A stretch of 64,000 nucleotides of DNA from a virus, in IMG/VR virus record IMGVR_UViG_3300036851_000385, positions 1 to 64,000 of that record; one strand, written 5' to 3'. The translations under genes were made by a program, and so were the position numbers. The notes under the pieces are model-generated. The model did not search any database, was not told the DNA's origin, and saw only the letters and a program-made list of their open reading frames with translations. Positions 8,878 through 42,905 of the stretch are shown here, in pieces (the stretch's first letter is position 1; each line of letters begins with the position of its first letter).

Positions 8878-9031
8878 CTTCCCGGCGCCTTTCTTGGATA
8901 AGCCGGCGGACGGTGCCCGCCAGCGACAATTTCCAGCCGCTCGCCAGCGCCTCAAGTTCTTCCCGTTCTTCCGGGTCGAGACGAACGAGGACCGGAACCC
9001 TCTGTGATACCGAACCGTTATCATCGCGCAT
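8831..9031 (-). CDS. Ribbon-helix-helix DNA-binding protein
   Basis: A 66-residue protein. VPVLVRLDPEEREELEAL and SLAGTVRRLIQERRRE are the strand and two helices of a CopG/Arc-type RHH. It is closely similar to the C-terminal domain of the overlapping GIY-YIG protein, so the two may co-bind or auto-regulate. A TACACT box sits 6 nt upstream of the ATG, suggesting a leaderless mRNA. Confidence 0.7.
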   Translation of the reverse strand: MRDDNGSVSQRVPVLVRLDPEEREELEALASGWKLSLAGTVRRLIQERRREDDPKTRRTRRRQPTA

Positions 9032-9037
9032 GGCCTG

Positions 9038-9043
9038 AGTGTA
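9038..9043 (-). promoter_or_regulatory. -10 box TACACT of a leaderless promoter
   Basis: Minus-strand TACACT ending 6 nt before the RHH ATG at 9031. Divergent from the TATACT box at 9085-9090. Confidence 0.45.
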
Positions 9044-9084
9044 TCACCTTCCGAGCCTGCTGTGTCCTCTTTTTCTACAACCGT

Positions 9085-9090
9085 TATACT
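9085..9090 (+). promoter_or_regulatory. -10 box TATACT of a leaderless promoter
   Basis: TATACT ends 6 nt before the ATG of the M15 peptidase gene at 9097, and no Shine-Dalgarno is present, so transcription should start at or next to the ATG. Confidence 0.5.
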
Positions 9091-9096
9091 TACCGT

Positions 9097-9891
9097 ATGA
9101 CCGTCAAGACGGCCGACAAGTCGCTCCTTCACCTATACCCACCGTTTCGCGCGAAGCTCGCCCAGGTTCTCAAGGAGACCGAAGCCGCGCTCGGAGAGCC
9201 GTGGGTGGCTACAGAGACCTATCGATCGCCGGAACGTCAGCTCTACCTTTTCGCCCAGGGAAGGACGCGGCCCGGCCCCGTCATCACCTGGTTGAAAAGC
9301 CCGCAGTGGCATGGGGCCGGCCTTGCTGCTGACTGTATGTCGAAGTCCCGCGTCGGAGTCCCAAGCGGCTACCAGGCGCCTCGACTATGGTGGGAGACCT
9401 ATCGCCGGATCTACATGGCGCACGGCCTTGAGAACCCGGCATGGAGCAAGGGGGACCTCGGCCACGTCCAGCTCTCCGACCCCGCCGTCCGCGCCCGCGC
9501 CCTCGTGTGGGTGCGCGCCGGCTTCAAGGAACCAGCCGTGAGCCGTGAGCCGTCAGCCGTAGACCCGGCTACCGGCTTACCGCTACCGGCTATCTCCGTC
9601 ATGGTCGACGGCCAGCCGGTGCCCGACGCCGACGCCTACCTCGACAGCGGTAAGGCGTGGGTGAAGCTCCGACCTGTGACCGACAGCCTGGATCTGGTGA
9701 TCGCGGAGGTCACGGGGAAGGGAGCGACTCGCCTGGCAGTGCTGGTGGACGACAGCGATGAGTGGCGTGTGCCGGTGGCGCTGAAGGAGGGCAGGGCCTA
9801 CGTGAAAGCCACCGACTTGCCGGCGGGGGTCTATTGGGTCGGCGGTGAAAAGTTGCTCTCGATCACGCCGAGGCGGAGGAATGGGCCATGA
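9097..9891 (+). CDS. M15-family peptidase endolysin
   Basis: A 264-residue protein. The zinc site of the M15 (VanY / L-alanyl-D-glutamate peptidase) family is visible: SPQWHGAGLAADC (H72, D79) and DLGHVQ (H123). Such enzymes cut peptidoglycan stem peptides and serve as phage lysins. Residues after about 145 form a linker encoded by heptamer repeats (9534-9592), followed by an extra beta-rich domain (ISVMVDGQPVPDADAYLDSG) like copper-amine-oxidase-type stalk domains, possibly for wall binding. The ATG at 9097 is chosen from the TATACT box just upstream. Confidence 0.85.
   Translation: MTVKTADKSLLHLYPPFRAKLAQVLKETEAALGEPWVATETYRSPERQLYLFAQGRTRPGPVITWLKSPQWHGAGLAADCMSKSRVGVPSGYQAPRLWWETYRRIYMAHGLENPAWSKGDLGHVQLSDPAVRARALVWVRAGFKEPAVSREPSAVDPATGLPLPAISVMVDGQPVPDADAYLDSGKAWVKLRPVTDSLDLVIAEVTGKGATRLAVLVDDSDEWRVPVALKEGRAYVKATDLPAGVYWVGGEKLLSITPRRRNGP
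9534..9592. repeat. Heptamer repeat block inside the endolysin gene
   Basis: Four AGCCGTN heptamers (9534-9561) followed by four CCGGCTA-type heptamers (9565-9592) that are partly complementary. It encodes the linker between the M15 domain and the C-terminal domain. Confidence 0.75.
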
Positions 9892-11368: not shown

Positions 11369-11506
11369 TCAGGTGTCGCGGTCCTTGATCTGCTGATCGA
11401 GGTCCGCAAGCTCTCTGTTGATCTGTCTGATCCGCGTCCAACAGTACCCGACGACCAGGCCCGCGAGGAAGCCCATGCCGAAGGTAAAGAGAAAGTCGTA
11501 GGTCAC
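11369..11506 (-). CDS. 45-residue membrane protein with coiled-coil tail
   Basis: A GTG-started short ORF (VTYDFLFTFGMGFLAGLVVG, then TRIRQINRELADLDQQIKDRD). The first 22 residues are a transmembrane helix and the rest a coiled coil, a shape like phage i-spanins. The GTG overlaps the upstream stop (GTGA), which supports translation. Confidence 0.6.
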   Translation of the reverse strand: MTYDFLFTFGMGFLAGLVVGYCWTRIRQINRELADLDQQIKDRDT

Positions 11507-12435
11507 AGGCGCACCACTGACATCCTAGCGAACCCTCGGTTGCCCGTGCGCCGCCGCGCAACATATCCGGCAGAAGAGGAGGTACCGACGGTCCAGCCGC
11601 CGCCTACCGAGATTTCGCAGTGCCCGATGCGATTTCTGGACTTCCAGAAAAACAAGTAATCTCCCCTGCGCCAGTAAGGATACCACGGAGCATATCGTGT
11701 GCTTGCTTTAGAGGCCACAAGGCGACCGCCGCGCCTTCGTAGCTGCGAATATTGCGCGTGGGCGCCGAAGCTGAGGCCCGGCCTCCCGCACTTCCTTGCA
11801 CAGTAAGCAGTAAAGGCCGCGCACGCTATTCTAGGATTGCGATAGAACGCACGGTTCCTTGTTCGTGCGTTCCCCTGGATCACCGCGTGCTTTCCGGCGC
11901 AGACGCCGAGCTTCGTCTGGAGCGCCTTCGGAGCAACGAGCTTCAACTCCCTGATCGGGATCGTTACCTCTTTGCGGGGGAGCCGGAGCGTGATCGTGTC
12001 CTTCCCGTCGATCGAGGTGACGATCGGCGCCGCGGGTTCGGTGAAGTCGGTACCGCCGACCGTGAAGCTCGGCACGACCGCTCTCTCCTTGTCTACCTGC
12101 TTCGCCGAAACTGCCTGCGTGCCCATCGGCACCTCCGGCGGCGGCGGCATCTCCTTGCGCGGCGGAACAGGAGGACCGGAAGGGCGCCGAGCACCAGGCG
12201 CCGAGCGCCGAGCAGGGATCGGGCTCGGCGCTCGGCGCCTGGTGCTCGGCGCTATCCCCGGTTTCGCGCGCTCCTCCTCTCCTGCTGGCCACAGCGCCAC
12301 CACGAGCCCGTAGACGCTGGCGATGGCGACCGCGAGCAGGAAGAGACCGATCCCCCACCCCAGCCGCCGGCAGCCGCGCTCCTGTCTGCGCTCTTCCGGT
12401 GTCGGACCGGCAGGCGGAGAGGAGTAGTCGTTCAT
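11503..12435 (-). CDS. Membrane-anchored NlpC/P60- or CHAP-like cysteine hydrolase
   Basis: A 310-residue protein. A transmembrane helix at about 25-49 is followed by a Pro/Arg-rich linker, a beta-rich middle, and a C-terminal cysteine-peptidase-like domain. In that domain PRIACAAFTAY holds the likely nucleophile (C205), and RRGDYLFFWKSRNRIGHCEISVG holds the likely histidine (H272). Such domains cut peptidoglycan, so this may be a second, signal-anchored lysin. Residues 61-84 are encoded by a perfect 30-bp fold-back of heptamers (12184-12252). The start overlaps the upstream stop (ATGA). Confidence 0.7.
   Translation of the reverse strand: MNDYSSPPAGPTPEERRQERGCRRLGWGIGLFLLAVAIASVYGLVVALWPAGEEERAKPGIAPSTRRRAPSPIPARRSAPGARRPSGPPVPPRKEMPPPPEVPMGTQAVSAKQVDKERAVVPSFTVGGTDFTEPAAPIVTSIDGKDTITLRLPRKEVTIPIRELKLVAPKALQTKLGVCAGKHAVIQGNARTRNRAFYRNPRIACAAFTAYCARKCGRPGLSFGAHAQYSQLRRRGGRLVASKASTRYAPWYPYWRRGDYLFFWKSRNRIGHCEISVGGGWTVGTSSSAGYVARRRTGNRGFARMSVVRL
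12184..12252. repeat. Perfect 30-bp heptamer fold-back inside a CDS
   Basis: Arms 12184-12213 and 12223-12252 are exact complements with a 9-nt loop. Each arm is built from GCGCCGA heptamers with one GCACCAG unit. It is translated as part of the linker of the NlpC/P60-like protein. Confidence 0.9.
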
Positions 12436-12680
12436 GAGGCGGCATCCTTCTCCATGCCCCACACGAGGCAGTAGAGCCACCACGCGCCAAGCGCCACGAG
12501 GGAGCCGAAGGAGCAGACCATCCACCAGGGGTTAACACTGTGGATCGCCGTCTCTTGACCGTATCTGTTCACCGTGGCGATCATATTGGCGCGATAGGTC
12601 ATGAACACCGCGAGCGAAGTCAGCAGGAGGAACAGGCCTCCGCCGATCACTGTGAGGAGTGCCGCCCGCCGGACGCTCAC
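12432..12680 (-). CDS. Two-helix membrane protein, holin-like
   Basis: An 82-residue protein with two transmembrane segments (LLTVIGGGLFLLLTSLAVFM; WWMVCSFGSLVALGAWWLYCLVW) and short charged ends, which fits a class II holin. Joined by ATGA to the hydrolase gene that follows and to the gene before it. Confidence 0.6.
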   Translation of the reverse strand: MSVRRAALLTVIGGGLFLLLTSLAVFMTYRANMIATVNRYGQETAIHSVNPWWMVCSFGSLVALGAWWLYCLVWGMEKDAAS

Positions 12681-12973
12681 CGGGGCTTCCCCAGCGGCTC
12701 CGGCGACGGGATCGGCACCGGCCCTCCCGGCATCTTCTGCTCGATTTTGTCAAGCCGCGCTTCGATCGCCGTAAGGCGCGCGAGGATCTGCTCCGCCGTT
12801 TTCCTCGGAATGGCGTCCAAGAGATCCCGCAGCTTGATCTGCACCGTCTGCTCCGGCGGCTTCGGTATCGGTGCGGCCGTCGCCGTGTCGATCCGCCACA
12901 GGTAGAGGATACACGCGACGACCGCGAGCCAGAACACGAACAAGACGCGGTTGGAGATGCCCTCGGTTCTCAT
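12677..12973 (-). CDS. Membrane protein with periplasmic coiled coil
   Basis: A 98-residue protein: N-terminal transmembrane helix (VLFVFWLAVVACILYLW), Pro-rich hinge, then a coiled coil (LRDLLDAIPRKTAEQILARL...IEARLDKIEQK) and a Pro-rich end. The build resembles an i-spanin or a membrane anchor for the neighbouring enzymes. Coupled by ATGA. Confidence 0.55.
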   Translation of the reverse strand: MRTEGISNRVLFVFWLAVVACILYLWRIDTATAAPIPKPPEQTVQIKLRDLLDAIPRKTAEQILARLTAIEARLDKIEQKMPGGPVPIPSPEPLGKPR

Positions 12974-14730
12974 TGTCCTCGCCTCGTGCCGAAAACTTGT
13001 ACCCAGTACGCTCCGTCCTTCGCGATGCCGATCTCCTTGAAAGCCGGGTTCAGGATGTTCGCGCGGTGGCCGGGGCTTGCCATCCAGGCTCTCATAACTG
13101 ATTGAGCAGTAGGGTAGCCAGCGGCCACGTTCTCCCCCCAGTTGATCGCCTGGTAGCCGGTGCGCGCGATCCGCTGCCCCGGAGTGCTGCCGTCGGATCC
13201 GGTGTGGGTCATCTGGTTTCGCGCTCGCATGTCGGCCGCGTGCGTCGTCGCCGCGAGCAGCAGGTACGGGTGCAGGATAAGCACCCCCGCGCCGGCCGCG
13301 CGCCGCTCGTTGTTGACGATCGAGAGCACTTCCGCCACGACCGCATCCGCCCCCGGATCCGGGGGCGGCACAGGGATCGGCGGCTCCGGCACCGGCACCG
13401 GCGGCCCTGGGCCGGGAGGTTGAGGGCTTCCCCCCGGCCCTGCCGCCCGCTCGCAGGCCGCGGCCGCGTTCACGCAGCCGGCGCCGTACTGCACGTCGAC
13501 GCCTTTAGGTCCCAGATCGGTCGCCGTGCCCATCAGTAGCAACTTCAACTCAGGTCGCGTGATCGAGGGCCGGAGACTTTTGACCAGGGCCGCAACACCC
13601 GTGACCATCGGCGCGGCCATCGAGGTCCCGCTGAACCAGAAGTACCCGGTCCCTTTCTTGTTGAACGTCTGCTGGAGGATTTGAACCCCCGGCGCCACGA
13701 TCCCCAGTCCCGGCCCGTACTGTGAAAACGCGGCGCGGCTGCCGTTCTCCTCGATCGCCCCCACCGAGAGCGTCTCCGAATACGCGGCCGGATAGGTGAT
13801 GGAGGCGTTCCCGCCGTTCCCGGAGGAGCACACCAGGAGCACGTTTTTGGAGGTGGCGTAGGCGACCGCGTCTTTCAAGGTCTGGCTGGGGCTGCCTCCC
13901 ACCGAAAGATTGATGATCGAGCATCCCTGATCGACCGCATAGCGGATGGCCGCGCCGATGGTAAAATTCGTGCCCCGGCCGTTAAGATCCAGGGCCTTGA
14001 CCGAGAGGATTTTCGCGGCAGGGGCGGTGCCTGCCGTTCCCATCCGGTTGTCGGTCGCCTGGGCGATCGTGCCCGCGACGTGAGAGCCGTGCCCGTTGTC
14101 GTCGGTGCCCCCGACTCTTCCGGTGATCGCGTTGTAAGGAGGCAGGAACCGGGTGCCCGCGAGATCCGAGAGCCCCTGCCGGATCCCTGAGTCCACGATG
14201 CCCACGGTGACGTTTGCGCCGCGGCTGTACCGCCGGGCGAGCGGCAGCCGGATTCCCACACCCTGGTCCATCATCCCCCACTGGTGACTCCAGTAGGTGT
14301 CGTTGGGGATAGAAGGCTGCGGGGGTATCTGCTGGCGAGCCGGCGCCTGCGCGGAGGTGCCGGAGGCCGGCTCGCCGATGCTGCGCCTCGTCCTCCGTGA
14401 TACCCCGTGAGCACGGAAGGCCATCACCTGCGCCGGCCGAATGCTGTACATCCAGATTTCCGGCTCGACGTACTTGACGAGCGTTTTTAGAGGGGCGGGG
14501 AGGACGAACCGGCGGGCCCTGGGGGTAACGACCAGATAGGGGCTGACCTTGCCCCCCTTGCGGTACTGCCCTTCCAGGTGATCCCGGATCCGCAGGAGCC
14601 GGGGCGGCGGCGGCGTCTCTTTCAGGCGGATGATATACCGGCCGGTGTGGTTGGAAGAGCCAGGAGCGGCGGAGCCGGGCGCGCCCAGTCCGACGAGCGC
14701 GAGGGCAAGCAGAAGAGTCGAAGTTCTCAT
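12970..14730 (-). CDS. Secreted subtilase (S8) with C-terminal CAP/SCP domain
   Basis: A 586-residue protein with a signal peptide (1-22). A propeptide-like region spans 30-100. The subtilase domain spans about 145-430 with all catalytic residues present: D180 (GIVDSGIR), H214 (DNGHGSHVAGT), N305 (SSGNGG) and S370 (SGTSMAAP). A Pro/Gly linker (430-460) leads to a bacterial CAP/YkwD-type domain (462-586: VNNERRAAG, MTHTGSDGSTPGQR, WGENVAAGY, SPGHRANILNP, IGIA). Both domains look intact. A secreted protease is rare in phage lysis regions; it might attack host surface proteins, or be a moron gene. Confidence 0.9.
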   Translation of the reverse strand: MRTSTLLLALALVGLGAPGSAAPGSSNHTGRYIIRLKETPPPPRLLRIRDHLEGQYRKGGKVSPYLVVTPRARRFVLPAPLKTLVKYVEPEIWMYSIRPAQVMAFRAHGVSRRTRRSIGEPASGTSAQAPARQQIPPQPSIPNDTYWSHQWGMMDQGVGIRLPLARRYSRGANVTVGIVDSGIRQGLSDLAGTRFLPPYNAITGRVGGTDDNGHGSHVAGTIAQATDNRMGTAGTAPAAKILSVKALDLNGRGTNFTIGAAIRYAVDQGCSIINLSVGGSPSQTLKDAVAYATSKNVLLVCSSGNGGNASITYPAAYSETLSVGAIEENGSRAAFSQYGPGLGIVAPGVQILQQTFNKKGTGYFWFSGTSMAAPMVTGVAALVKSLRPSITRPELKLLLMGTATDLGPKGVDVQYGAGCVNAAAACERAAGPGGSPQPPGPGPPVPVPEPPIPVPPPDPGADAVVAEVLSIVNNERRAAGAGVLILHPYLLLAATTHAADMRARNQMTHTGSDGSTPGQRIARTGYQAINWGENVAAGYPTAQSVMRAWMASPGHRANILNPAFKEIGIAKDGAYWVQVFGTRRGQ

Positions 14731-15117
14731 CTACTTTAGCGGCGCCTTCTGCCACCTGGGGGCGGGGATCACAACGAGCGCGGAGCGGGCCATGGGAGCC
14801 GCGCCCATCACCACCTCGGGTTCCACGTAGGCGATGAGACGGGAGCGCCTCTGTACCTCCTCCAGCGTCTCCCCGCGGCGCAGGAGGACCAGCGTGTTCG
14901 CGCCGATCGGTGCCATCTGCACGATGCGGTTCCCGAACGTGCGCCGAAGCTCTTTGACCACGGCCGGCGTGAGCGGACCTTTCAACCCCACCACCAACCG
15001 GGCTGGAGGTTCCTTCGGCGCGGCGGTGCTCGTCGGCACGCCGCTGCCCTGTCCCACGATCACCCCTACGATAAGCCCGAAAACCAGTGAGTTAATCCGC
15101 GCGCGATGGAGTGCCAT
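14731..15117 (-). CDS. Subtilase propeptide (I9)-like secreted protein
   Basis: A 128-residue protein with a signal peptide (LVFGLIVGVIVGQGSG). The middle, from ARLVVGLKG through GNRIVQMAPIGANTLVLL to SRLIAYVEPEVV, follows the beta-alpha-beta pattern of subtilisin propeptides and I9 inhibitors, ending in the usual YVEP. Its stop abuts the subtilase ATG directly. It may act in trans as a chaperone or inhibitor of that protease; this is inferred from fold and position. GGAGG sits 5 nt before the ATG at 15117. Confidence 0.7.
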   Translation of the reverse strand: MALHRARINSLVFGLIVGVIVGQGSGVPTSTAAPKEPPARLVVGLKGPLTPAVVKELRRTFGNRIVQMAPIGANTLVLLRRGETLEEVQRRSRLIAYVEPEVVMGAAPMARSALVVIPAPRWQKAPLK

Positions 15118-21265: not shown

Positions 21266-21598
21266 TTACTGGTCTTTTTCTGCCCCGGTCTCCTTGACCC
21301 ACCGCCACACCGTTTGATAGGAAACGCCCAGGATCTGCGCTGCCTGCCGGAGCGACTTGCCCTCATCCTTAAGCTGCCGCGCTGCCGCGCTCCGGTGCTG
21401 TGCAAGGATCCGGCGCAGCCTCCGATAGCTCCGGACATCAAGCCCTTTGACCGCCGCCAGATCCGCTGGCGGTACCGCAGCCACCTCCCCCAGCGTGTTA
21501 TACCCGGCGGCGGTCAGAGCGCGCAGGGCTCCGGCGGAGAGGGCCAGAGACGTGAGGGGGAGGGAATGCCACGGGAGGCGCGGCTCCGGTTCGCTCAA
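21266..21598 (-). CDS. Alpha-CTD-like helix-hairpin-helix protein fused to an HTH
   Basis: A 110-residue protein with a TTG start overlapping the upstream stop (TTGA). Residues 10-65 (SLALSAGALRALTAAGYNT; LGEVAAVPPADLAAVKGLD; SYRRLRRIL) follow the RNA polymerase alpha C-terminal domain pattern. Residues 70-105 are an HTH of the resolvase/transposase type (KSLRQAAQILGVSYQTVWRW). It might bind DNA like alpha-CTD while contacting polymerase, but HhH repeats also occur in nucleases and helicases. Confidence 0.65.
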   Translation of the reverse strand: MSEPEPRLPWHSLPLTSLALSAGALRALTAAGYNTLGEVAAVPPADLAAVKGLDVRSYRRLRRILAQHRSAAARQLKDEGKSLRQAAQILGVSYQTVWRWVKETGAEKDQ

Positions 21599-21810
21599 AG
21601 GTCGTAGTCCTCCAACGCATCCGCTATTGCACGGGCGCAGTCCAGGCAGACGCAGCCATAGAACGCCAGGCAGTGATCCATCCGCACGCGCAGGCACCGG
21701 ACCGCCTCGGAGCCTTCGCCGAAGTCGCTCTCGCACACAGAGCAGATTGCCTCTATCGTCTCCCATGCAGGGTTGACGCCCTCGCCGCTCGATCGATAGC
21801 CGGGGCTCAT
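21595..21810 (-). CDS. Zinc-ribbon protein
   Basis: A 71-residue protein with ICSVCESDFGEGSE and HCLAFYGCVCLDCARAI, two CxxC-type pairs for one zinc. Coupled by ATGA upstream and TTGA downstream. No family is recognised. Confidence 0.6.
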   Translation of the reverse strand: MSPGYRSSGEGVNPAWETIEAICSVCESDFGEGSEAVRCLRVRMDHCLAFYGCVCLDCARAIADALEDYDL

Positions 21811-22049
21811 GGCTCCTCCGTCTTCTCCTCGACCTCCGGCTCGTCGCCCAGCCACACGCGCAGCTCTGCCGCGCACTTCCCGCAGAGCCAGCCGGCCGAG
21901 CAGCGCGTATCGGAGAGGCTCCAGGGACGCAGCGTGATGGCGACAGCATCCTTCGCTCGTTCTCTGCAATGATCGCAGGTGTATGCCGGCTGGCAGTCGT
22001 CGTCTCTGTCCGGCAACTCGGCGGCCGCGCGGAAACTGGCTTGGCTCAT
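21807..22049 (-). CDS. Zinc-ribbon protein
   Basis: An 80-residue protein with YTCDHCRERAKDAVAITL and GWLCGKCAAEL, a treble-clef or ribbon-type zinc site, followed by an acidic tail. Resembles many phage-encoded small zinc proteins. It is the first gene downstream of the IS605-like insertion. Confidence 0.6.
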   Translation of the reverse strand: MSQASFRAAAELPDRDDDCQPAYTCDHCRERAKDAVAITLRPWSLSDTRCSAGWLCGKCAAELRVWLGDEPEVEEKTEEP

Positions 22050-24408: not shown

Positions 24409-25617
24409 ATGAAGATCACCGAAGCCTCCATCGACAGCGTGTCCCCCGATCCGCGAAATGCGAACACCGGGACCGACCGCGGCAGGGAGGCGCTGCGCCA
24501 TTCTCTCGCGAGCTACGGGGCTGGGCGCTCGATCCTGCTGGATCGCCACTCCCGCGTGATCGCGGGGAACAAGACGCTTTCCGCCGCCGCCGGCCTGGGG
24601 CATGAAGACCTCCTCATCGTGGACACGGACGGCTCAAAGCTCGTGGCCGTCCGGCGCACCGACCTCGACCTCGATGAACCGGAGGCGCGCGAACTCGCAC
24701 TCAGTGACAACAGAATTGCCGAGTTAGACCTCTCCTGGTCGGCGGAAGCGATCGATGAGGCGCTGAAGGATGGGCTGGCCCTCTCGGCGCTGTGGACCGG
24801 CGATGAGCTGGAGGAGCTGCTGGCGAGTCTCTCGCCTGCTGGGGGGCTGATAGAGGAGGCGGACCCGGATTTCGTACCGGAGGCGGTGGAGCCGAGGTGC
24901 AAGCTGGGCGAGCTGTGGGCGATGGGGCCGCATCTGCTGTATGTCGGCGACTGTACGGATACCGATGCGATCCGGCGGCTGTGGGGCGACGAGAAGGCCG
25001 AGATCATCCTGACCGATCCGCCCTACTGCTCCGGCGGCTTTCAGGAGGCAGGGCGTACGAAGGGCAGCACCACCTCACAGAAGAAGGGTGCGGCGCTGCT
25101 CCGAGACCACCTCACGACCGAGGGTCTCGAAACTCTCATCGAACGCGCGATCGGTCGTATCCCTGCGGTCGGCTGCTGCTACGTGTTCTGTGATTGGCGG
25201 CAACTCTTTGCCATCCGCCGCGCGGTGGAACCTCTTGGCTATCAGTACCGTGCGCTCCTCGTCTGGGACAAGCAGACACCGGGGATGGGCGGGCCGTGGC
25301 GGCACCAGCACGAGTTGATCTACTTCGGCACACGGCGGAAAGAAGCCGCGACCGGGAACTCCGGTGATGTGCTGCAAGTCACGCGGACCGGCAACGATCT
25401 GCACACGACGCAGAAGCCGGTGAAGTTGATTGCGCGGATCCTTGAGAACTCCGAGGGCAACGTCGTTGCCGATCCCTTCGCCGGTAGTGGAACTACGCTG
25501 ATTGCCTGCGAACAGGTCGGCCGAACGTTCCGAGGCTGTGAACTTGATCCGCACTACGCAGACACGATCGTCACTCGCTGGGAAGCCGCCACGGATCAGT
25601 CTGCCCGCCGTCTCTGA
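24409..25617 (+). CDS. ParB-domain DNA methyltransferase
   Basis: A 402-residue protein. Residues 1-110 form a ParB-like domain (ISPDPRNAN-type start, then RVIAGNKTLSAA). Residues 160-395 form an adenine- or cytosine-N4-type methyltransferase with DPPYCSGG (catalytic motif IV) and, near the end, DPFAGSGTTLIACEQ (AdoMet site), i.e. class beta order. This fusion is common in phages and prophages near the terminase genes, where it may protect phage DNA from host restriction. Confidence 0.88.
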   Translation: MKITEASIDSVSPDPRNANTGTDRGREALRHSLASYGAGRSILLDRHSRVIAGNKTLSAAAGLGHEDLLIVDTDGSKLVAVRRTDLDLDEPEARELALSDNRIAELDLSWSAEAIDEALKDGLALSALWTGDELEELLASLSPAGGLIEEADPDFVPEAVEPRCKLGELWAMGPHLLYVGDCTDTDAIRRLWGDEKAEIILTDPPYCSGGFQEAGRTKGSTTSQKKGAALLRDHLTTEGLETLIERAIGRIPAVGCCYVFCDWRQLFAIRRAVEPLGYQYRALLVWDKQTPGMGGPWRHQHELIYFGTRRKEAATGNSGDVLQVTRTGNDLHTTQKPVKLIARILENSEGNVVADPFAGSGTTLIACEQVGRTFRGCELDPHYADTIVTRWEAATDQSARRL

Positions 25618-37710: not shown

Positions 37711-37944
37711 ATGAACGAACTCCTGGCGACTGCCGCCGAGCCTGTCCAGCTTGGCGAGCCGGATCTCGCCTATTACCTCGCCCTTCGCGCCCGCCTGGAC
37801 GAGGCAAAGGCGCAGGTCGCTCTCTGGCAGCAGGCACTCGAGGCGATCGTTCCCGTCCTGGCCGCGCGCCACGGCATCGAAGGGCACCTCCTGATCGATT
37901 CGGCCGGCTTCTATACGACGGCGCCCGAGGAAGACGACGGCTGA
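37711..37944 (+). CDS. Hypothetical protein
   Basis: A 77-residue mostly helical protein (DLAYYLALRARLDEAKAQVALW). TGATG overlap with the next gene. No Shine-Dalgarno is seen. No family is recognised. Confidence 0.5.
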   Translation: MNELLATAAEPVQLGEPDLAYYLALRARLDEAKAQVALWQQALEAIVPVLAARHGIEGHLLIDSAGFYTTAPEEDDG

Positions 37945-39455
37945 TGACGAGGGTTATTGCCCAGGATGAACTCTGGATCCGCTCCGGCAAGATCCGGTTT
38001 TCGGGTGGATCGGGTCCGCGTGGCGTGGCCCCCTCGGACGGGGCCGATCTGATCTACGATCCCACGCGGGGGGCGCTGGTCCTCTCCGTCGATGGGCGGC
38101 CCTATCGCCCGGTGGGAACCGCGCTGGTCTCCGACGTGCAGGCGGATTTTGGCGCGAAAGGTGACGGAAGAACGGTTACCGACGGCGCAATGACCTCCGG
38201 CTCGGCCGTGGTCACCTCGGCCACCGCAGCGTTCACAGCAGCGGACGTTGGCAAGTTCATCAGCGTCCGAGGGGCGAACACGGCGGTGGGCGGGGAGACG
38301 CTCGTCGGCACGATCGCGACCTACATCTCCGCCACGCAGGTAACGGCATCGATCGCCGCCAACGCCACCGTCTCCTCAAAGCGCGTCGTCTGGGGCACGA
38401 TCGATACTCTCGCCATCCAGGCGGCGCTGGACGCGGTAGCGGCCGCGCGGCGCGGCGTGGTGTACCTGCCTGTCGGTATCTACCTGATCGACGCGCAGCT
38501 TTTGCTCTCCGGCGTCTCCGACGACGATCCGATCCGGGGAGCGACCGTGTGCGGAGAGAAAGGGGCAACGCTCTGGGCGGCGGATGTCAATATCCCGTAC
38601 ACGGGAGGGGTGACCGGGAGCCTCCTGGCCTCGATCTACGCCGAGGACGTGACCTTTCGTGATCTGATTTTCCAGGGAACGGGCACGGGCTTTACCGGCC
38701 CCCGGCTCTGCGCGCTGCGGATGACCGGCAAGGGGCTGAACACCGTCTATCACAATCTGACCTTCAACGATTTCAAGGGGGCCATCCCGCTTGACTACTC
38801 CGGCACCCAGCGCGCGGTGATCGACACCTGCTACGTGGACGCCTGCGACTACGGCATCGTTCAGAGCAACCTCGACGGCTCGGCGTCGATCGTGAATTGC
38901 CAGGTGACGAACCCAAGCCAGGCGGATACCCTCGTGCCCGGCATCTGCGTCTCCGGGCGCGATAACCGGATCTCGAAGAACTACATCGAGACGCCGGCCG
39001 AAACGTTTTCCATCTGGATCGGCGACACCAGCCAGGACGCCTGTGTGATCGGCAACACGATCAAGGGACCGGGGACGACCACCTCGTCGGGCATCCGCAT
39101 CCACGCCGATACCGGGGGGGATTGCGTGATCATGGGCAACCAGATCGACGGCTGCGGGACCGCGATCGTCTTAAACGGCACCTCGATCACGGTGACCGGC
39201 AACCAGATCCGGGGCGGGGGCGTGGGTTATACCGGGATCGCCACCTTCTACGACGGCAACCCCGCATCCGAGGTCTCCATCACCGGCAACGCCTTCGCCA
39301 ACTGTGCCAAGGGCATCGACGGCGGCACGCTGGCTTCCGGCTACGTGACCGTCACCGGCAACATCTTCCCTGCCAGCGTGACCGACCCCATCGCGGGCGA
39401 GGGCTCATGGACCAACTCGAAAGGCGTCGGGAACGCGGGCCTGGCGGACTTCTAG
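37944..39455 (+). CDS. Right-handed beta-helix (pectate lyase-like) structural protein
   Basis: A 503-residue protein. VQADFGAKGDGRTVTDGAM is the hallmark start of pectate-lyase-type beta helices in phage spikes. Short repeats of N-x-hydrophobic strands follow (ITVTGNQIRGG, VSITGNAFANC, VTVTGNIFP). Such proteins often degrade surface polysaccharide as tail spikes; here it lies in the head-gene block, so it may be a head or collar spike. Confidence 0.75.
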   Translation: MTRVIAQDELWIRSGKIRFSGGSGPRGVAPSDGADLIYDPTRGALVLSVDGRPYRPVGTALVSDVQADFGAKGDGRTVTDGAMTSGSAVVTSATAAFTAADVGKFISVRGANTAVGGETLVGTIATYISATQVTASIAANATVSSKRVVWGTIDTLAIQAALDAVAAARRGVVYLPVGIYLIDAQLLLSGVSDDDPIRGATVCGEKGATLWAADVNIPYTGGVTGSLLASIYAEDVTFRDLIFQGTGTGFTGPRLCALRMTGKGLNTVYHNLTFNDFKGAIPLDYSGTQRAVIDTCYVDACDYGIVQSNLDGSASIVNCQVTNPSQADTLVPGICVSGRDNRISKNYIETPAETFSIWIGDTSQDACVIGNTIKGPGTTTSSGIRIHADTGGDCVIMGNQIDGCGTAIVLNGTSITVTGNQIRGGGVGYTGIATFYDGNPASEVSITGNAFANCAKGIDGGTLASGYVTVTGNIFPASVTDPIAGEGSWTNSKGVGNAGLADF

Positions 39456-39863: not shown

Positions 39864-40892
39864 ATGGCCTACCAGAATGAGAGCTTCTGCCAGTATCCGT
39901 GGCTGGACCTTCCCACGTCGAACCTGACCGTGCTGACGCTGGATGCTTCGGGAGAGAAGGCGGCAGGCGTCTTCCGGGTAGCGAAGACGGGATCGATACA
40001 GAAGATCCACTTCTTGCTCTCGACGGTGACGACGGGACAGACGCTGAAAGCCTCGCTTCAGGATGTGGATCTGGCGACGGGGGATCCGGACGGAACGATT
40101 GACCAGTCGGGGACGGTCGCGGTCGCCGATGGGGACGATAACACATGGAAGACAGTGACGCTTGGGGCTGTCCGTGCGGTTTCGCGAGGCGATCAGTTGT
40201 CGGTCGTCTTTGAGTTCGATGCGACCATTGGGAACCTGCAGATTGTCTCGGGGAGCGCGATTCCGGTCATGAATGTCTACACGGACCTTTATACGGGGAC
40301 GTGGGCCAAGCAGGCACGGTGTCCGCTTTTCATTCTGGAGTATGACGATGCGTCGATTGTGCCGATCCCAGGTGTCCTCTATGGTCTGGGCACGTCGCTC
40401 GACTTCAATTCCGGCTCGGCCGCGGACGAGGTGGCGCTGCGCTTCTCGCTGCCCTTTCCGGTGAGAGTGATGGGGCTCGGGCTGTATGGCCGGGTGTCGG
40501 GTGATGTCGATCTGGTGCTTTACTCAGGTACCACGGCGCTTGCCACGACCTCCCTGGACAAGGAGGTGCGTCAAACGTCGACGGACGGCATGAACGTTGG
40601 CCTGTTCTCTGCGGCCCAGGAATGTGCGAAGGATACGGTCTACCGGGCGGCGGTCAAGCCCACATCGGCAACGAGCGCGAGGGTCATTTATAACGATGTG
40701 TCTATCGCTGCCCATCTGGACGCGGCGCCGGGCGGTCGGGAGCTGCACTATTCGAGCCGGGTGGACGGGGGCGCCTGGAGCGATACCACCACGCGGCGCC
40801 CCTCGATCGTGCTCCTGATCGAAGGGTTCGATGACGGCGTGAGTGCCGGGGGTCTGATCGGCGCCGGCAGCATTCGCGGGGGCTTCCAGTAG
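39864..40892 (+). CDS. Structural protein, fibre- or collar-like
   Basis: A 342-residue beta-rich protein (LTVLTLDASGEKAAGVFRVA; WKTVTLGAVRAVSRGDQLSV). It looks like two similar jelly-roll-type halves (about 1-160 and 165-330), as found in carbohydrate-binding or fibre proteins. No catalytic motif is seen. Starts GCGTAGCGACCTATG. Confidence 0.5.
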   Translation: MAYQNESFCQYPWLDLPTSNLTVLTLDASGEKAAGVFRVAKTGSIQKIHFLLSTVTTGQTLKASLQDVDLATGDPDGTIDQSGTVAVADGDDNTWKTVTLGAVRAVSRGDQLSVVFEFDATIGNLQIVSGSAIPVMNVYTDLYTGTWAKQARCPLFILEYDDASIVPIPGVLYGLGTSLDFNSGSAADEVALRFSLPFPVRVMGLGLYGRVSGDVDLVLYSGTTALATTSLDKEVRQTSTDGMNVGLFSAAQECAKDTVYRAAVKPTSATSARVIYNDVSIAAHLDAAPGGRELHYSSRVDGGAWSDTTTRRPSIVLLIEGFDDGVSAGGLIGAGSIRGGFQ

Positions 40893-40895
40893 CTG

Positions 40896-42905
40896 ATGGA
40901 TTCCATCTTCAAAGGCTCCACGGATGTCACGCTTTACTTCGTGCTCGTCGATTCCACGACCGGTCTTCCGGAAACCGGAGTCGCGCACACGTCGGTTACC
41001 GGGAGCTACGTCCGGAACCGGGGGACGCGTACCGCGATCAGCATGGTGAACCTCGCGGCGCCGGACTCCGCGCATTCCGACGGCGGTTGGGAGGAAGTCG
41101 ACAGCACCAATCAGCCGGGGCTTTACCGGTTCGACATCCCAGACGCGGCCTTTGCAACCGGCGCCGATAAGGTGATCGTCTCCGTGGTCGTCACCGGCGT
41201 GAAGACGGAGCACCAGCTCATCCCGCTCTCCGACTGGAACACGCAGGTAGCGGCGATCCCAAACGCCGCGGCAGCCGCCGCGGGGGGCCTCTTCACCCGC
41301 GGCACCGGGGCGGGGCAGATCAACCAGGCGGCGGATGGGATGATCGATGTGAGCGTCGTGCGCCTGGCAAACGTCGCGCAGAGCTTGACCGATCTCAAGG
41401 ATTTCGCCGACGACGGATACGACCCCATCACGAACAAGGTGCAGGGGGTGGTGCTCACGGACACCCTTACGACCTACACCGGGAACACCCCACAGACGGG
41501 AGATTCCTTCGCGCGCCTGGGCGCTCCGGCAGGCGCTTCCGTCTCAGCCGACATCGCGGCCATCGAAGGCCAGACCGACGACATCGGGGCGGCGGGCGCG
41601 GGCCTCACGGCCGTTCCCTGGAACGCGGCGTGGGACGCGGAGGTAGAGAGCGAGGTCGCGGATGCCCTCGCTGCCTATGACGCCGCGACCGGAGGCGACG
41701 TCACCACTGCCGCTGCCTCCGTCACCGTCACCGGTATTGCCACCAATACGATCGGCTCGGGGGCGCTGGATCAGACCGCGATCACCGAGATCCGATCGCT
41801 CTTTTCCGGGACCGCCGACTCGGGCACGACGACGAGCCTGACGGATGCGGATTTGAACCAGGTCGACGCGGACTTCTGGAAGGGGCAGATCCTTCTCATC
41901 ACGTCGGGGAGTACGATCAACCAGTCGCGCACGATCACCGGCTTCAACCCGGCGACGGACACTCTGACCGTCGACCGCGCCTTCACGCAGGCGATAACCA
42001 CCAACACCTACGAGATCCTTCCCGCAGGGGCGGCGCTTGTGGCCGCGGATGCCGTGACAGAGATCCAGGCCGGGCTGGCCACCGCCGCGGCGGTGGCCAC
42101 GGTGCAGGCGGATACCGACGACATCCAGACACGCCTCCCGGCCGCCCTCGTCTCCGGTCGGATCGACGCGAGCGTGGGAGCCGCCGCGGCGAACACGATC
42201 ACGGCATCTGCGCTCGCCACCGATGCCGTCACTGAGATCCAGGCAGCCGTGGCGGCGGGCTCCGTGGCCTCGGTGACCGGCTCAGTCGGCTCAGTGGTCG
42301 CAGGTGTCACGCTCGCCGCCTCGGCCGTCCAGGCGATCTGGGACGCGCTCACTTCGGCGCTCACGACCGCCGGCTCGATCGGCAAGCTCCTCGTCGACAA
42401 CATCAACGCCACGATCAGCAGCCGCCTGGCCACCGCTGGCTACACCGCGCCGCCCACGGCCGCGGCGAACGCCGATGCCGTGTGGGATGAGACCCTCGCC
42501 GACCACCTGACGGCGGGGTCGACCGGCTCGGCATTGAACGCGGCAGGCTCCGCCGGTGATCCGTGGAACACCGCCCTTCCCGGCGCCTACGGGGCAGGGA
42601 CGGCCGGCAAGATCGTCGGGGACAACATCAACGCCACGGTCAGCTCGCGCGCCACGCCCGCCCAGGTGAACGCCGAGGTGCTCGACGTGCTGACCGTCGA
42701 TACCTTCGCCGAACCTCTGGCGATACCGGATGCGACTTCGAGCCTGAAGGACAAGCTTTCGATGCTCTTCATGGCGCTTCGCAACAAGGTGCGGCAAACG
42801 GAGACCGCCCAGGAAATCTGGAACGACGCCGAGGATACGCCGGTAGCGACAGCCACGGTGTCCGACACGGGCGACGAAACGGTCCGGAGCAAGTTCGAGA
42901 GCTAA
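40896..42905 (+). CDS. Large repetitive structural protein
   Basis: A 669-residue protein. Residues 1-110 form a beta domain typical of phage head-fibre or upper-collar proteins (FKGSTDVTLYFVLVDSTTGL; YRFDIPDAAFATGADKVIVS). The rest is an Ala-rich repeat shaft (TDDIGAAGAGL, TAVPWNAAWDAEVESEVADA, repeated VTEIQAG units), and ends ETVRSKFES. It looks like a fibre shaft with a trimer end; likely attached to head or neck. Confidence 0.6.
   Translation: MDSIFKGSTDVTLYFVLVDSTTGLPETGVAHTSVTGSYVRNRGTRTAISMVNLAAPDSAHSDGGWEEVDSTNQPGLYRFDIPDAAFATGADKVIVSVVVTGVKTEHQLIPLSDWNTQVAAIPNAAAAAAGGLFTRGTGAGQINQAADGMIDVSVVRLANVAQSLTDLKDFADDGYDPITNKVQGVVLTDTLTTYTGNTPQTGDSFARLGAPAGASVSADIAAIEGQTDDIGAAGAGLTAVPWNAAWDAEVESEVADALAAYDAATGGDVTTAAASVTVTGIATNTIGSGALDQTAITEIRSLFSGTADSGTTTSLTDADLNQVDADFWKGQILLITSGSTINQSRTITGFNPATDTLTVDRAFTQAITTNTYEILPAGAALVAADAVTEIQAGLATAAAVATVQADTDDIQTRLPAALVSGRIDASVGAAAANTITASALATDAVTEIQAAVAAGSVASVTGSVGSVVAGVTLAASAVQAIWDALTSALTTAGSIGKLLVDNINATISSRLATAGYTAPPTAAANADAVWDETLADHLTAGSTGSALNAAGSAGDPWNTALPGAYGAGTAGKIVGDNINATVSSRATPAQVNAEVLDVLTVDTFAEPLAIPDATSSLKDKLSMLFMALRNKVRQTETAQEIWNDAEDTPVATATVSDTGDETVRSKFES

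Follow-up and report, generated by a model that had tools for sequence, protein, structure and literature searches.

A tailed-phage subtilase–CAP protein with its own propeptide and an adjacent, separately encoded propeptide-like protein as a candidate inhibitor

Stand-alone propeptide-like inhibitors of subtilases are described from eukaryotes, including SUB1-ProM of Plasmodium, TgMIC5 of Toxoplasma and counterparts from Pleurotus, yeast (peptidase B) and Arabidopsis; SUB1-ProM carries a signal sequence, is encoded beside subtilase genes and inhibits the malaria egress protease (PMC6993865). Here we analyse a locus in the virus record IMGVR_UViG_3300036851_000385 (70,136 bases), of which positions 1 to 64,000 (64,000 nucleotides, hereafter the window) were studied, in which a gene for a predicted secreted subtilase (peptidase S8) fused to a CAP domain is directly preceded by a gene for a small I9-like protein. 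Phage exit is generally ascribed to holins, endolysins and spanins. An initial annotation, made from the sequence alone, had taken the small protein for a propeptide supplied in trans. Our models place a propeptide within the protease itself, and the reading we favour, to which we give an even chance of being right, is that the small protein, encoded beside a secreted, wall-targeted protease, inhibits it as a stand-alone propeptide-like partner and derives from a duplicated propeptide that has become free.

The 586-residue protease comprises a signal segment (about residues 1–25), a cis I9-like propeptide (28–104), a linker, the S8 domain (about 141–430), a Pro-rich linker (432–460) and the CAP domain (462–586). 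Pfam confirmed the two-domain architecture given in the initial annotation (S8, residues 171–418, E 4e-58; CAP, residues 470–571, E 4e-17), with a PF00082 (peptidase S8) score of 197 bits against a cut-off of 21.8. The intact triad reported there (D180/H214/S370) is invariant in a 42-row S8 alignment of the window protein and 41 bacterial-genome relatives, so the concern that its catalytic residues might not be conserved in relatives did not materialize; proteolytic activity is predicted. A hydrophobic segment at residues 4–22 agrees with the proposed signal peptide, signal segments being judged throughout by hydropathy and not by a signal-peptide predictor. GC content at codon positions 1–3 of the gene is 0.64/0.55/0.82. 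Two labels were tried and rejected: the NCBIfam mycosin model (type VII secretion system protease) scored 208 bits against a cut-off of 278.75, and the short viral S8 class with a short N-terminus and neither signal nor propeptide, which we take to be of the intracellular-subtilisin kind, does not accommodate a protease that has both.

The structure model of the protease, computed from an alignment of the 41 relatives that included their propeptides, reached pLDDT values per 10-residue block of 65–93 over the N-terminal domain (31–100) and 85–98 over the catalytic core (141–430), while the CAP part was poor because few aligned relatives cover it. The top structural match was an unprocessed pro-subtilisin (3wiu_C; Z 48.3, 349 residues at 2.1 Å, model residues 30–431), whereas the best match to a catalytic domain only aligned 277 residues; the best 50 structural rows had Z scores of 42–48 to subtilisins. 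Since unprocessed pro-subtilisins are the best matches, the cis domain sits where a subtilisin propeptide sits, and the protease is thus modelled with its own propeptide in the canonical docked position on the catalytic domain.

The upstream open reading frame (ORF) ends in a TAG stop whose very next codon, in the same frame, is the ATG of the protease gene. Its own ATG, at 15117, is preceded by GGAGG, a strong ribosome site, and with its own start, ribosome site, signal segment and stop it is, by sequence, a separate gene product. GC content at codon positions 1–3 is protease-like (0.70/0.49/0.83), and its codon score of 0.24 compares with 0.27 for the protease, which unlike the upstream ORF was in the training set; both measures resemble those of other genes of the phage. 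In a search of the 508 window ORFs of at least 50 residues with a propeptide profile (73 pre-S8 segments, of which 71 came from bacterial genomes and 2 from viral contigs, the upstream ORF excluded) it came out first (E 1.3e-5), and hhalign aligned it to propeptides at E 9.5e-6. These results bear out the earlier description of a secreted I9-like gene directly abutting the protease gene; we call the product I9-like and not a Pfam I9 member, PF05922 giving no match to it. Its model shows the expected six-element propeptide topology. The first three Foldseek rows were small chains of Aspergillus alkaline protease entries (prodomains, to judge from the length and numbering of the chains); POIA1 from its complex with subtilisin (1v5i_B) matched at Z 7.1. 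Because the protease already has a cis propeptide, the upstream protein is, on sequence evidence, a second propeptide-like domain beside it. Close homologues were not confirmed in viral contigs, where 21 pattern stretches were inspected, and matches in 22 of 400 Chloroflexota genomes (E 0.0018–0.0092) were judged to be noise and were not used.

Only one full-length relative of the protease–CAP protein was found among the best 80 viral loci of an S8-alignment scan of viral contigs, in record IMGVR_UViG_3300036851_000534 (L147). This orthologue is 45% identical over about residues 29–580, with both S8 and CAP above cut-off, and it is a single-propeptide protein in which the cis domain is conserved. 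The two phage records are largely collinear (major capsid protein 50.5%, portal 43%, large terminase subunit 38%), and both have an NlpC/P60-like gene (47%) on the downstream side of the protease gene, adjacent to it in the relative and separated from it in the window by two genes for small transmembrane (TM) proteins; the NlpC/P60-like pair, used as the query of another scan, led to no relative beyond the known one. Since the protease is about as diverged as the core genes, its gene looks like one that belongs to the phage lineage, as opposed to a recent pick-up. The terminase, portal, prohead protease and major capsid genes on the window's record identify the region as genuine tailed-phage DNA, not host; together with the collinear orthologue, they run counter to the host-derived insertion in a non-viral contig that the initial annotation had named as a possible refutation.

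The similarity of the three phage propeptide domains bears on the origin of the free copy. By local alignment the upstream domain scored 68 against the cis propeptide of the orthologue and 39 against that of its own neighbour, the two cis propeptides scored 79 to each other, and the best score of the upstream domain in a comparison set of 121 further pre-S8 segments, of which 83 are bacterial, 27 viral and 11 drawn from Chloroflexota loci, was 49. Shuffle z values, obtained with slightly different trimming, were 7.1 (upstream to orthologue), 3.0 (upstream to own cis) and 11.0 (cis to cis). The motif EPE[VIL]xM occurs in all three phage domains and in none of the 121 other segments, one of which has the shorter EPE[VIL]; a smaller set of 84 segments (82 bacterial, 2 viral) gave the same outcome. 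Given its closeness to the orthologue's cis propeptide and the shared motif, the upstream protein is most simply read as paralogous to the propeptide of this phage lineage, although domains of ~65 residues are too short for a firm tree; on the simplest reading, the free copy kept ancestral features while the window's cis copy drifted.

At the other end of the protease, the CAP domain named in the initial annotation proved intact (PF00188, 63.5 bits against a cut-off of 21.1) and has H497, H509, E533, H555 and E566 in common with the orthologue; these residues may be the conserved His/Glu site of the CAP superfamily, a candidate metal-binding site. In NCBIfam it matched DalA (NF052539, E 4e-24) and YkwD (TIGR02909, E 9e-22), both below cut-off, and the DalA equivalog label was rejected at 85 bits against 200. 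DalA is reported to be an ~18 kDa lipoprotein that binds peptidoglycan non-covalently (PMC10470522), and by analogy the phage domain probably tethers the enzyme at peptidoglycan. Separately, the CAP domain of a Chloroflexota protein (L132:4909-5988, plus strand) is identical to the window CAP at 68 of 133 residues, against 69 of 130 for the second phage's CAP; this possible hint at the host is a lead only, from a CAP search that covered Chloroflexota.

We caution that several observations weigh against the inhibitor reading. The stand-alone I9 was not found in the second phage's record (63,946 bases, not known to be complete), so that the pairing of protease and free I9 is seen in one phage only. 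The propeptide profile sees the window's cis domain weakly (E 0.038) and misses that of the orthologue at E 0.05, and Pfam I9 (PF05922) matches neither the cis domain nor the upstream protein. The upstream domain is only weakly similar to its own neighbour's propeptide, which makes a source other than direct tandem duplication possible. The best Foldseek E value for the upstream model is just 0.011; near Z 7, propeptides and unrelated proteins score alike, the top-Z row is itself unrelated, and the fold is the common ferredoxin-like one. Propeptide-bearing alignments were the input for both structure models, that for the upstream protein consisting of propeptides, and with so common a fold and equal scores from unrelated proteins the upstream model is therefore a matter of consistency, not proof. 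Finally, wall binding by the CAP domain is argued by analogy with DalA, and a role of the protease in lysis from its gene neighbourhood.

Table 1 Positions in the window of the protease, the upstream protein and neighbouring genes
Feature	Position	Strand	Basis
Pro-subtilase–CAP protein, 586 aa	12970-14730	-	ORF call, Pfam, alignment, structure model
Propeptide and catalytic part, residues 30–431	13438-14643	-	Superposes on unprocessed pro-Tk-subtilisin
CAP domain, residues 456–586	12973-13365	-	Pfam, NCBIfam, orthologue alignment
I9-like, signal-bearing protein, 128 aa	14731-15117	-	Propeptide profile, hhalign, model; TAG abuts protease ATG in frame
Membrane-anchored NlpC/P60-like putative wall hydrolase	11503-12525	-	Pfam; orthologue in second phage
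98-aa protein, one N-terminal TM segment	12677-12973	-	Start overlaps protease stop
82-aa protein, two hydrophobic segments	12432-12680	-	Holin-like by size and topology only
Endolysin-like protein	9004-9891	+	phrog_6523 endolysin, E 3.7e-10
Divergent helix-turn-helix (HTH) protein, one TM segment	15371-16228	+	Counterpart on same side of protease gene in second phage

The neighbouring genes (Table 1) support the envelope or lysis setting proposed earlier for the pair, and a lysis function of the protease is suggested on this basis. Of the lysin and holin-like neighbours then named, the lysin stands through its endolysin PHROG match, but the NlpC/P60 call is weak in the window copy (E 0.15), the orthologue's 21.3 bits (E 2.8e-4) also staying under the cut-off of 23, and neither Pfam nor PHROGs returned a holin family for the small TM proteins. 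On the other side of the pair, the HTH protein has a counterpart in the second phage (L147:1660-2196, minus strand, 31% identity), so that in both phages a membrane-anchored regulator lies beside the secreted protease and diverges from the operon.

In the mechanism that we propose, the protease would be exported as a pro-subtilase whose cis I9-like propeptide, to judge by its modelled fold and docking, would act canonically, folding first and then inhibiting the catalytic domain for a time, with processing presumed to follow. The CAP domain, of the YkwD/DalA kind, would hold the enzyme at peptidoglycan. A copy of the lineage's propeptide, presumably duplicated given its similarity, has its own signal segment and stands as a separate gene directly before the protease; by analogy with SUB1-ProM, this free copy would be exported in step with the protease and most likely bind its active-site face in trans. 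Envelope proteolysis would then have to wait for dilution, degradation or out-titration of the inhibitor, as might happen at lysis; the likely substrates would be envelope proteins of the host or the wall hydrolase encoded nearby. The order of the genes, with the candidate inhibitor first and joined to the protease start, fits a brake supplied before the enzyme. A fuller version, which we advance tentatively and consider doubtful as a whole, would split the propeptide's jobs between the two copies: the cis copy would serve folding, while the exported duplicate, as a stoichiometric timer, would keep the wall-tethered protease silent up to the time of egress. The pair would then be a bacterial-virus counterpart of malaria SUB1/SUB1-ProM, and the divergent membrane HTH protein could sense envelope proteolysis and couple it to transcription. 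If true, the pair would add to envelope breakdown a timed proteolytic step with a separately encoded brake, and would indicate that a protease–inhibitor pair can arise by propeptide copying.

Among the alternatives, the one that survives best keeps the protease away from lysis: it may modify host surface or secreted proteins during infection, in superinfection exclusion, defence or signal processing, which we hold to be possible though not probable. The absence of a recognised holin next to it, the HTH gene diverging from the operon in both phages and distant S8 matches in PADLOC (subtilase, E 5e-30; IetS, E 1.6e-7) would suit such a role, but the likeness to defence proteases is at the level of the S8 domain only, PADLOC matched none of the five neighbours scanned, and a wall-hydrolase-like gene follows the protease gene in both phages. 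It is unlikely that the upstream protein serves the protease in trans, as a folding chaperone or as its true propeptide (the view of the initial annotation), with a degenerate domain in cis. Although of the two domains the upstream one is the better fit to the propeptide profile, the cis domain is modelled with propeptide topology and docked on the catalytic domain, and the orthologue has conserved it, no second copy being found on that record; a propeptide supplied in trans is thus not supported, and an added inhibitor made by duplication is the more likely reading of the separate protein.

Somewhat less likely again is that the upstream protein targets secreted subtilases of the host, shielding phage envelope proteins or virions, with its adjacency to the protease merely operonic. 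Inhibition of other subtilases is described both for subtilisin propeptides and for propeptide-like proteins that stand alone (PMC6993865), and the upstream domain is not especially near its neighbour's propeptide, but the motif that it has in common with the propeptides of both phage proteases is absent from the 121 other segments, and the two genes directly abut. That the ORF is a non-functional leftover of duplication is improbable: it was found in one of the two phage records, but its frame is intact, its ribosome site strong, its codon-position GC gene-like and its codon score close to that of the protease even though only the latter was in the training set, and its predicted fold is intact. 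Least probable is a single gene in which the TAG is read through, by recoding or suppression, to give a 715-residue protein with two propeptides: the shared frame with TAG immediately before ATG would allow it, as would a second TAG in the window (40890-40896) after a 342-residue ORF and almost at once before an in-frame one of 669 residues, but the second part begins with ATG and its own signal segment, coding signal flanks the stop at just three TAG, one TGA and no TAA sites in the window, no tRNA genes were found in a scan of the window (the record's last 6 kb lying outside it) and the orthologue has a single propeptide, so TAG recoding was rejected.

Host and lifestyle were approached through the same record. 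With an alignment of the capsid protein as query, one distant match at E 1e-20 was found in 400 Chloroflexota genomes and three in 396 Actinomycetota genomes, and a host assignment from matches so few and distant was dropped. The role in lysogeny that had been suggested for the protease gained no support from a tyrosine integrase, PF00589 having no match in the record in a search that left serine integrases aside. Elsewhere in the window, a ParB-like N-terminal region is fused to a DNA methyltransferase (24409-25617, plus strand; PHROGs, Pfam N6_N4_Mtase) with a 40% identical relative in the second phage, one protein pairs a domain like the RNA polymerase alpha-CTD with an HTH at its C-terminus (21266-21949, minus strand), and another matches pectin-lyase-like and tail-spike PHROGs (37944-39455, plus strand).

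Secreted proteases are less exceptional in phages than the initial annotation held. Among 116 viral S8 loci, which were not de-duplicated and count several records twice, the N-terminus is short and lacks both signal and propeptide in 87; in the other 29, the orthologue included, it is long, hydrophobic or propeptide-bearing. Propeptide-bearing, apparently secreted S8 proteases without a fused CAP domain occur, for instance, on the viral contigs L148–L163, L167, L172, L202 and L203. What is rare is the CAP fusion together with a stand-alone I9. A search of 6658 ORFs from the window and 120 loci brought up a single stand-alone I9 outside S8 ORFs, the one in the window, and a search of 6478 ORFs from the 116 viral loci brought up none; the loci, having been gathered for their S8 similarity, do not form a random sample, and diverged stand-alone copies would escape a profile that misses the orthologue's cis propeptide at E 0.05. 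No S8–CAP fusion was present in 117 S8 loci (L002–L118), and the orthologue was alone in carrying one in both the 80-locus and the 116-locus viral sets. The 301 Chloroflexota genomes searched gave at least one match spanning both domains (G207), a lower bound since at most four candidates were scored per genome; a second candidate (G252) had no CAP match on inspection. A separate CAP gene was found on 4 of 37 S8 records (39 records were searched, two of them non-S8). No S8 gene was found in 47 capsid-related records of the 80 loci so retrieved, the search leaving out the remaining 33 (the orthologue's own record among them), or in the one terminase-related record, many of these records being fragments. 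The open-licence literature yielded neither a phage subtilase–CAP protein nor a phage propeptide-like inhibitor, which does not imply that they are unpublished.

Comparison with known systems sets the phage pair apart in its combination of parts. A Chloroflexota protein of 1,259 residues (L131:4186-7962, plus strand) has I9-like, S8 and CAP domains in the same order, but it is larger, has a second CAP domain at its C-terminus and belongs to a bacterial genome. In an S8 tree of 142 sequences the two phage proteins pair with support of 0.999 within a 21-member clade (support 0.983), whereas the S8 domain of L131 lies outside that clade and first joins them in a 58-member group, which argues that the phage fusion probably arose independently of the Chloroflexota one. 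Short phage S8 proteins (Bacillus phages BSP14, SP-15, PJN02, Goe8 and vB_BcoS-136, and Moorella phage MTATph1) are 30–42% identical in the S8 domain, but their genes are annotated at 282–375 residues, too short for the pro-S8–CAP layout. DalA and YkwD resemble the CAP domain at the E values given above, and DalA, at its size, is too small for an additional subtilase domain. Secreted bacterial pro-subtilisins (pro-subtilisin E, 3whi; pro-Tk-subtilisin, 2e1p/2z2z) have in common with the phage protease a signal segment, a docked I9-type cis propeptide and an intact triad, but the phage version has a CAP fusion and, ahead of its gene, a second I9-like gene that stands free. The principle of a free propeptide-like inhibitor is known from eukaryotes and was not found in the other phages examined. 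SUB1-ProM, TgMIC5 and the inhibitors of Pleurotus, yeast and Arabidopsis resemble the upstream protein as small separate genes with a propeptide fold, SUB1-ProM also in its signal and its subtilase-gene neighbour; the phage gene differs in lying directly before the protease gene and in being an apparent paralogue of that protease's propeptide, with an inhibitory function proposed by analogy.

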